Shown: positions 3,353-11,221 of the stretch, in pieces
How the letters are laid out: each line of letters opens with the position of its first letter
How positions within the stretch are numbered: position 1 is the first letter of the stretch
Source: a virus
Reading direction: 5' to 3' (one strand)
Length of the DNA: 57,883 nucleotides
Virus record (IMG/VR): IMGVR_UViG_3300028025_002279
Span: 1-57,883 of that record
Notes under the pieces: generated by a model
What the model saw: the letters and a program-made list of their open reading frames with translations, nothing else
Databases searched by the model: none
Told to the model about the DNA's origin: nothing
Program-made: the position numbers and the translations under genes

Positions 3353-3529
3353 ATGAAAAGTAAAATCATTTCTCACATTGCTGTAGAAGAACTTTATTCA
3401 GACCAAGATGGTTGGTGGATTGTATTGAAAGATGGATACAATTATTTTGGATGCTGCTCATTTAGGGAGGATTCCTTAAGAAGACTATACGACTCACTAT
3501 CTCAAGTTAAAATTGGAAACCCTTATTAA
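3353..3529 (+). CDS. 58-aa early protein, unknown
   Basis: First gene after the putative promoter at 3323. The translation MKSKIISHIAVEELYSDQDG continues with WWIVLKDGYNYFGCCSF and a basic helix (REDSLRRLYDSL). The Trp-Trp strand and alternating hydrophobic residues indicate a small beta-sheet protein with a C-terminal helix. It is not recognised. The stop is followed after 12 bases by the next small gene. Confidence 0.62.
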   Translation: MKSKIISHIAVEELYSDQDGWWIVLKDGYNYFGCCSFREDSLRRLYDSLSQVKIGNPY

Positions 3530-3541
3530 AAAAAACACATT

Positions 3542-3676
3542 ATGAAACCAAACGAATTAAGAATGCTAGTCATTAAGAACTTTATTGAGTACTACACTAG
3601 CGATGAAAAAGAACGTCTTGAAATGTTAGAAGTGGCTATGAACTATTGCGAAGAGGTCGAAGTAGAATTTGAATAA
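3542..3676 (+). CDS. 44-aa acidic helical protein
   Basis: Translates as MKPNELRMLVIKNFIEYYTS followed by DEKERLEMLEVAMNYCEEVEVEFE. It is predicted to be two amphipathic helices with an acidic end. Spacing to both neighbours is 12-16 bases and the start context is A-rich like the neighbouring genes. No function can be assigned. Confidence 0.58.
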   Translation: MKPNELRMLVIKNFIEYYTSDEKERLEMLEVAMNYCEEVEVEFE

Positions 3677-10339: not shown

Positions 10340-10891
10340 ATGAAGCATCTATTCAAAGCATTATCAGACTTTCAGCAAGAAGTTCCTGTCATCCACAAGG
10401 ATACGCAAGGATACGGGTATAGCTACGCTGACCTACCAACTATCTTTACCATTATCAATCCTCTACTCAAGAAGCATGGTCTAGGATTTACACAGCCCAT
10501 CGTTGGTTCTGTTATACAGACCATAGTATTCCATGTAGAGTCCGGTGAGAGCATTACCTCCGAGATACAAATTCAAGAAGGTGTAGCTCTGAAAGGAATG
10601 AATGAATTCCAAGTATTAGGTAGCGGTATTACCTACCTCCGTAGATACGCATTATCTTCGATTCTAGGCATAGTAACCGATAAGGATACTGATGCAGCAG
10701 GAGAACAGATAAAGCCTGCTGTAGCGTCTACAAATGCGTCTGATGACAAGCCATGGCTAAATGAGTCAAATAAGGAGGCATGGGATAAGGTTGTATCGTC
10801 ACTGAAGAGTGGCTATACTATGACTGATGTCAGGAAGAAGTACAAGGTATCTAAACCTGTAGAGACTAAGCTATTGTCACTAATAAACTAA
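10340..10891 (+). CDS. erf: ERF-family single-strand annealing protein
   Basis: A 183-aa protein with the ERF domain: residues 1-40 (FKALSDFQQEVPVIHKDTQGYGYSYADLPTIFTIINPLLKKHGLGF), the beta-rich middle (IVFHVESGESITSEIQI) and the diagnostic VLGSGITYLRRYALSSILGI around residues 92-111. The family promotes annealing of single DNA strands in phage recombination. The exonuclease at 13772 would supply its substrate, a Red-like pair. The C-terminal 50 residues form a basic helical tail. The gene is isolated, flanked on both sides by structured non-coding sequence. Confidence 0.9.
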   Translation: MKHLFKALSDFQQEVPVIHKDTQGYGYSYADLPTIFTIINPLLKKHGLGFTQPIVGSVIQTIVFHVESGESITSEIQIQEGVALKGMNEFQVLGSGITYLRRYALSSILGIVTDKDTDAAGEQIKPAVASTNASDDKPWLNESNKEAWDKVVSSLKSGYTMTDVRKKYKVSKPVETKLLSLIN

Positions 10892-11046
10892 TTGCGTTAT
10901 CGGTAACATTAAACCCTTGCACCTCAGCACTAAGGTTGGGTTAGACATAGGTATCCTGCTTATCTGTTTACTGATAACAGCACTCCTTCTGAAATATGCA
11001 GATAAGGATATCAAGTGGGAGGCTACTGCCAGAGTGTAGCAAAAAT
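10892..11046 (+). ncRNA. Structured gene-free region with possible pseudoknot
   Basis: GTTATCGGT (10896-10904) pairs with ACTGATAAC (10970-10978), 9 bp with one G-U. CTTATCTG (10959-10966) pairs perfectly with CAGATAAG (10999-11006). The two helices interlock, as in an H-type pseudoknot, or are alternatives. Further hairpins are GCTAC/GTAGC (11022-11040) and AAACCC with GGGTT (10911-10942). No ORF is supported. It leads directly into the tRNA-like element and may form one RNA with it. Confidence 0.5.
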
Positions 11047-11221
11047 AGTCAGGTGGCGGAAGGAGGATGGTGTCCATCCTCGTGGTAGACGCTAAGGGAG
11101 CAAGATAGAAAGTCCATAAACGGATTGCTTAAGGTACAAGTGGTTGGCCAGAAGCATATGTTACACCATTATAGCCTTTCCAGTGAAGACTTTCATACAG
11201 GTTCGAATCCTGTCTTGACTA
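11047..11221 (+). ncRNA. tRNA(Leu)-like RNA with D-loop hairpin and expanded anticodon region
   Basis: The acceptor stem AGTCAGG (11047-11053) pairs with CTTGACT (11214-11220), 7 bp with one G-U. The T arm is ACAGG-TTCGAAT-CCTGT (11197-11213). The D stem GCG/CGC (11056-11058, 11090-11092) carries a tRNA(Leu)-type D loop with the conserved GG. Inside the D loop is an extra 8-bp hairpin, GAGGATGG-TGT-CCATCCTC (11063-11081). A class II variable arm GTGAA-GACT-TTCAT (11183-11196) precedes the T arm. A weak anticodon stem, AAGGG (11094-11098) with CCTTT (11175-11179), encloses 76 nt instead of 7. CCA is not encoded. It may be an intron-bearing tRNA or a tRNA mimic. Confidence 0.65.

Follow-up and report, generated by a model that had tools for sequence, protein, structure and literature searches.

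A probable tRNA-framed, non-decoding small RNA with an exchangeable domain in a phage likely to infect Bacteroidota

The IMG/VR virus record IMGVR_UViG_3300028025_002279 is a sequence of 57,883 nucleotides (nt), which was analyzed over its full length and is called the window here. At positions 11047 to 11221, it carries an element that resembles a leucine transfer RNA (tRNA) with a foreign domain in place of the anticodon arm. We consider it slightly better than an even bet that a probable Bacteroidota phage here encodes a small, non-decoding RNA with a tRNA frame, which displays an exchangeable effector domain. Comparison with relatives from other viral contigs indicates that a covarying tRNA shell holds a structured, exchangeable domain at the anticodon-arm site, usually in same-strand tRNA arrays. 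A wider proposal, which we regard as evenly balanced, is that environmental phages carry a large, modular superfamily built on a common leucine-tRNA-type chassis, which host tRNA enzymes would process; its dozens of unrelated, often pseudoknotted domains would be swapped and would serve to attack or evade the host, and the RNAC of phage T4 would be an independent example. The family is apparently undescribed, and no description of an anticodon-less phage tRNA-like family was found in the open-access literature searched.

The element lies in a 355-nt gap after the gene for an Erf-type annealing protein (10340-10891). The host is likely a member of the Bacteroidota because the window terminase is nearest, at about 30% identity, to those of phages of Flavobacterium, Cellulophaga, Tenacibaculum, and Maribacter and of the uncultured complete genome MW202828. 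The parts of the element are as follows.

11047-11053, plus strand: acceptor stem 5' strand AGTCAGG, which pairs with CTTGACT at 11214-11220 (7 pairs, including one G-U)
11054-11092, plus strand: leucine-type D arm TGGCGGAA...TGGTAGACGC, with T8, the D stem GCG/CGC, A14 and A15, G18 and G19 (11084-11085), and a D-loop insertion
11063-11081, plus strand: D-loop hairpin GAGGATGG-TGT-CCATCCTC, a perfect 8 base pairs (bp) (11063-11070/11074-11081), which covaries in relatives
11093-11196, plus strand: exchangeable middle domain of 104 nt, in place of the anticodon arm and variable arm, with no anticodon
11099-11103, plus strand: AGCAA, 5' strand of a possible pseudoknot helix, S1; weak in the window alone (p ~0.4)
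11108-11114, plus strand: GAAAGTC, 5' strand of helix S2 (window shuffle p ~0.015-0.02)
11125-11129, plus strand: TTGCT, 3' strand of S1, within the S2 loop; an equivalent helix covaries in the relatives L108, L082, and L003
11188-11194, plus strand: GACTTTC, 3' strand of S2, which ends 2 nt 5' of the T stem; a helix at the same position covaries in the relatives' alignments A2 and A3
11196, plus strand: U48, the Levitt-pair partner of A15
11197-11213, plus strand: T arm ACAGG-TTCGAAT-CCTGT, the stem of which covaries in relatives
11214-11221, plus strand: acceptor stem 3' strand CTTGACT and the discriminator A73 (11221); CCA is not encoded

A 7-bp acceptor, a 5-bp T arm, a 3-bp D stem, and the D-loop GG occur together once in the window and in 0 of 100 shuffled windows. 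Direct reading of the letters confirmed the perfect hairpin in the D loop and the 104-nt distance between the D and T arms given in the original prediction; the acceptor stem, D stem, D-loop GG, and T arm are present, and every helix that it named was found in the sequence. The window copy thus has several features of a decoding tRNA-Leu, namely the 7-bp acceptor, a D arm with G18G19, a T arm with TTCRA, and A73. A 5-bp anticodon arm with a 7-nt loop and U33 is absent from it. No tRNA or transfer-messenger RNA (tmRNA) was called by ARAGORN anywhere in the window, where neither a tag reading frame nor a tmRNA fold was detected, and the element has no Rfam match even at E=1. The minimum free energy of the 179-nt RNA is slightly below that of shuffled sequences (z -1.96). 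Folding energy alone is insufficient proof of the window RNA, and the proof is supplied by covariation.

Relatives were collected with sequence patterns. The pattern for a D arm with an insertion matched at least 119 contigs, about 75-80 of which show a T arm and acceptor stem; most of the others are likely chance matches without a T arm. At least 120 contigs matched the pattern for the undecorated 5' end, and at least 120 matched the one for the 3' end. At least 427 distinct elements were collected from viral contigs of a few kb to more than 300 kb, with the reservation that pattern-based sampling inflates the prevalence of AGTCAGG and that family frequencies are not abundance estimates.

The shells of 26 relatives were aligned with the middle cut out. 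In this alignment, 98.7% of pair cells are standard, and 18 of the 23 pairs are changed on both sides. Double-changed cells number 140, compared with 36 in shuffles, and pairing falls to 35-48% when the partner is slid by 1-3 columns. Both sides are changed in all 7 pairs of the acceptor (99.5% of cells paired), in 7 of 8 pairs of the D-loop hairpin, and in 4 of 5 pairs of the T stem (100% paired). Conservation and covariation of the acceptor, D, and T stems in related phages had been set as the test of the original prediction, and the shell shows both. The D stem is invariant, but this was imposed by the search pattern. Of 101 relatives selected through their 3' end alone, 94 have T8 and 58 have a Leu-like D arm; of 69 selected through the D arm alone, 68 have T at position 48. 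Because T8 and U48, which no pattern imposed, are also kept, the tRNA elbow is under selection. The original description is borne out: the element is like tRNA(Leu), its elbow is intact, and its shell covaries in other phages.

The D-loop insert appears to be a second site for exchangeable modules. The inserts of L129/L184, L139/L145/L148, and L117/L174/L193 fall into recurrent classes with conserved loops, such as AAAGAGTAATAGTAT, CTGGGATAAAAACTG, and TTAGTAGTGGCGAGCGAA. Decoding tRNAs can have enlarged D loops as well: an insertion of ~20 nt is found there in genuine tRNA-Leu(UAA) genes whose CC(A) tail is encoded (L093 3843-3944, L187, and L188).

The locus itself was compared among close relatives. 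A search with the Erf protein returned 80 loci, of which three (L002, L003, and L004) encode a 98-99% identical Erf. L003 and L004 have a 114-nt version at the same site, in which the acceptor GGTTGGG/CCCAACC replaces AGTCAGG/CTTGACT. The D-loop hairpin of this version differs from that of the window by a single wobble change; its middle is 44 nt long, its discriminator is G73, and a tRNA-Trp follows downstream. In L002, the element is missing from that site. The paired acceptor change and the absence from L002 show that the element is real, varies with its pairing preserved, and is accessory.

Across the family, the D and T arms are 22-145 nt apart. A canonical anticodon arm is absent in 255 of 269 Leu-type relatives. 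It is present in the other 14, where 1.9 are expected by chance; most of these are evident tRNA-Leu genes, three of which have a D-loop insertion of their own. Genuine tRNA-Leu controls within the same set were recognized by the anticodon-arm test. The original prediction had seen no convincing leucine anticodon at the right place in the element. It had also proposed an intron-bearing tRNA, in which the middle splits the anticodon arm of the exon. The length of the window middle, which exceeds the canonical one, and the standing of tRNA-Leu as a classical intron host would fit such a gene. However, the arm is missing from nearly all Leu-type relatives, and the inserts are too short for group I or II introns. 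Many middles, at 22-30 nt, do not reach the 31-35 nt usual in class II tRNAs and therefore leave no room for an intron, and the middles form conserved families. Removing the insert does not reveal an anticodon arm beside the D stem, although a split arm was not searched for systematically. We therefore regard an intron as very improbable.

The middles can be sorted into at least 65 classes that recur and have conserved loops; a further 234 are singletons. Middles that are identical or nearly so are found in different shells (L123 and L179, L108 and L354, L145 and L213, L181 and L179), which differ in the D-loop insertion (with or without), the acceptor, or the T stem. In 222 non-redundant middles, a helix ending beside the T arm is strongly enriched (combined p 2.7e-27). 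In the window, this is S2, which the original prediction had listed as a competing helix; it is real, and its 3' strand lies, 2 nt before the T stem, at the site of the class II variable arm. The five-pair anticodon stem AAGGG/CCTTT, which the prediction had drawn, gained no support, and S2 is the better-supported arm of the window copy.

Pseudoknots are proposed for only some classes of middle, because S1 is weakly supported over all middles (combined p 8e-4). In the H-type pseudoknot of L108, L082, and L003, both helices have four double-changed pairs, a count that comes from three sequences only. In the window, S1 (AGCAA/TTGCT) would give the topology of L108 and is not significant on its own. 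Class 1 has a covarying stem at the anticodon-stem position and a loop complementary to a downstream strand; this pseudoknot helix is invariant and hence outside the reach of covariation. A covarying stem at the anticodon-stem position is also found in class 3, which includes MW202828, and class 12 shows covariation in the arm adjoining the T arm.

The main rival to a displayed effector domain is a leucyl-acceptor mimic. Such an RNA is predicted to be charged by leucyl-tRNA synthetase (LeuRS), an enzyme that recognizes its tRNAs independently of the anticodon, and would act as a leucine sink or donor outside translation or sequester LeuRS or EF-Tu, with a middle that merely blocks ribosomal use. 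The leucine identity set of Escherichia coli consists of A73, A15-U48, G18G19, A20a, and the D/T-loop contacts, and E. coli LeuRS still charges variants that lack both the anticodon arm and the variable arm (PMC9976931). None of the identity elements is missing from the window copy. Among the 69 relatives chosen by the D arm, U48 is kept in 68 and A73 in 52. However, A73 is missing in the other 17, the close relative L003 has G73, and 43% of the relatives chosen by the 3' end have no Leu-type D arm. Conserved, structured middles would also serve no need. The original prediction had suggested a tRNA mimic acting on synthetase or RNase P. This stands in the broader sense, as leucine identity elements are mostly kept; it falls short for the roughly one quarter of relatives without A73. 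We judge a role as leucine acceptor to be unlikely.

The elements usually accompany tRNA genes. A separate tRNA called by ARAGORN lies within 2 kb for 235 of 466 placements, and the neighbor relations are on the same strand in 782 cases and on the opposite strand in 0. Loci with multiple copies are one-stranded in 103 of 105, have a median gap of 222 nt, and contain up to 8 elements. In L213, a stretch of 5 kb holds numerous elements together with true tRNAs for Ile, Ser, Glu, Gln, and Leu. These repeated, closely spaced copies on one strand would suit processing punctuation, where phage transcripts would be divided by RNase P and RNase Z cutting at the elements, with a middle that drifts freely. 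The middles are not drifting, as the recurrent classes and covarying helices show, and the genuine tRNAs of the same arrays would already divide the transcripts. Punctuation is accordingly an improbable account.

ARAGORN calls overlap just 80 of the 466 copies. Some relatives score 32-45 bits with the Rfam tRNA model RF00005, and tRNA is the sole Rfam family that the relatives match above its cut-off. MW202828 has an unannotated element at 523-629 with an acceptor other than AGTCAGG. In bacterial and archaeal genomes, the AGTCAGG pattern was found in only 5 contigs of metagenome-assembled genomes among 11.3 million contigs, which suggests that, at the sensitivity of this pattern, this is not a host gene family. 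A BLAST search of 50,697 cultured phage records gave no AGTCAGG-type element among the matches listed. A similar element (L433 4788-4904), tRNA-like and with an anticodon/variable region far larger than usual, lies beside normal tRNAs in the tRNA array of the 735-kb huge phage LR756501.

Another explanation is that the elements are degenerate or pseudo-tRNA genes left by the turnover of phage tRNA genes. The unique middle of the window copy and the gain and loss of the element among close relatives are consistent with decay. For the family, the explanation is disfavored by the strong covariation of both shells and middles and by the invariance of U48 in a set not chosen for it, and we hold it to be slightly less probable still than punctuation.

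The favored reading, a tRNA-framed RNA displaying an exchangeable domain, suggests a mechanism. By analogy with general tRNA biology, the phage transcript would be cut by RNase P at the 5' end of the element, the 3' end would be trimmed by RNase Z or exonucleases before the addition of CCA, and the L-shaped frame would shield the RNA from decay. The middle, often a helix or pseudoknot packed on the T arm, would be the working part. More tentatively, its most likely partner is a host factor, for instance one from translation, RNA decay, or a defense system, for which it would serve as a decoy or inhibitor. An arms-race role of this kind would lead one to expect rapid turnover of the middle.

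A further rival reading is that the elements are decoys displaying fragments of ribosomal RNA (rRNA). Single look-alikes exist: the L129 D-loop AGTAGTGGCGAGCGAAC resembles 23S 241-257, and L406 resembles 16S 533-555. The overall similarity to E. coli rRNA is no higher than that of shuffled or reversed sequences, and rRNA decoys are most doubtful. Like the intron-bearing tRNA and tmRNA, rRNA mimicry was tested and is unsupported.

Several observations count against the displayed-domain reading. The sample was chosen by sequence patterns, which partly account for the constancy of AGTCAGG and the D arm, and the shuffle tests treat related sequences as independent except for a simple redundancy filter. 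The absence from L002 indicates that the element is dispensable. The 104-nt middle of the window has no relative by BLAST in the collected set or by exact pattern; the window copy could be decaying or very young for this reason, and its own role is read from family membership. Searches for a target were negative: in antisense, the best match between the window middle and the genes of the phage itself equals the shuffled median, and 430 interiors or middles compared with E. coli 16S, 23S, and 5S rRNA show no excess over shuffled or reversed sequences. Expression, processing, and binding of family members are predictions from sequence. A scan for consensus promoters and terminators gave fewer matches than shuffles, the consensus being uninformative for Bacteroidota phages.

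The nearest known relative in kind is RNAC (species 1 RNA) of phage T4, which is anatomically alike and is not a sequence member. Northern blots show late expression of RNAC, and its function is unknown (PMC9697503, PMC3014915). RNAC and RNAD are small non-coding RNAs inside the phage tRNA cluster. RNAC terminates in a true T arm (CCGGG-TTCGAAT-CCCGG), accompanied by a variable-arm-like hairpin and an acceptor-like stem. It differs from the window family in that two U-U mismatches interrupt this stem and a D arm is lacking. Its folding energy is far lower than that of shuffled sequences (z -4.57), and four members of the Tevenvirinae show covariation in the T stem and in one acceptor pair. A sequence relation to the window family was not found for T4 RNAC, and the RNAC matches are T4-type phages of enterobacteria. 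Both share a T arm and an acceptor-like closing stem around a non-tRNA core. The location in a tRNA array is shared by the family and by L003 and L004, with tRNA-Trp downstream, while the window itself has no other tRNA. In Enterobacter phage EnC15 (L442 316-472), an unannotated RNAC relative keeps the frame and the variable-arm hairpin and has its central domain replaced.

Two looser parallels than RNAC are the TMERs of gammaherpesviruses and tRNA-Other of Bacillus cereus. TMERs belong to a eukaryotic virus and join a tRNA part to downstream miRNA (microRNA) hairpins, whereas the insert of the window family lies inside the frame and replaces the anticodon arm. The likeness is that the TMERs/vtRNAs of MHV68 use a virus-encoded, tRNA-like frame for making non-coding RNAs (PMC4838037). 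The pseudo-tRNA tRNA-Other is a tRNA-like RNA with an extra-translational role, perhaps as an element of a larger regulatory RNA (PMC3399842). It differs in having a Trp anticodon and in being a chromosomal gene rather than a modular phage family. The window element, for its part, has a D stem, is much shorter than tmRNA, and escapes ARAGORN tmRNA detection. What it has in common with tmRNA is a tRNA-like acceptor and T arm, tmRNA having pseudoknots instead of an anticodon arm. A foreign RNA at the anticodon arm, with tRNA-style processing and protection, is also the design of the engineered tRNA scaffold. That scaffold for RNA expression in E. coli (PMC3753655) is man-made, whereas the arrangement here would be natural.

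Phage tRNA clusters are usually taken as translation aids or as answers to tRNA-cutting defenses. If hundreds of these genes are tRNA-shaped and non-decoding, part of the clusters would be a hidden RNA arsenal that is skipped or miscalled by annotation tools, and the modules would be naturally selected RNA domains, ready-made for display on tRNA scaffolds. T4 RNAC was already known in early T4 work and has no assigned role; through its link to the family, the question can be tested in ordinary E. coli.

A second RNA precedes the element in the window.

10897-11043, plus strand: separate conserved structured RNA directly upstream of the element, found in 9 viral contigs; the two may share a transcript

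The upstream RNA (L003 5550-5702, and also in L095, L201, L202, and L204) has the form ACC...GCACC..GGGTTGGGWTAGACATAG-helix-CARGTGGGAGGCTACTGCCAGAGTGTAGCAAA. Its long-range helix shows two-sided changes by eye (GTATCC/GGATAT, GTAGACT/AGTCTAT, and TAGATTA/TAATCTA), and it has no Rfam match. The suggestion that the element is the 3' domain of a longer phage RNA is possible given this structured neighbor, but the upstream RNA occurs both with and without a tRNA-like element behind it. A module ACGCACGGCAACCGAA...TTAGGCAATGCGAA...GTGCGTAGGTAARTTTCAA was observed within the middle of the L163 element (3431-3603), and the same module is free-standing in L003 (5821-5960), between the tRNA-like element and tRNA-Trp.
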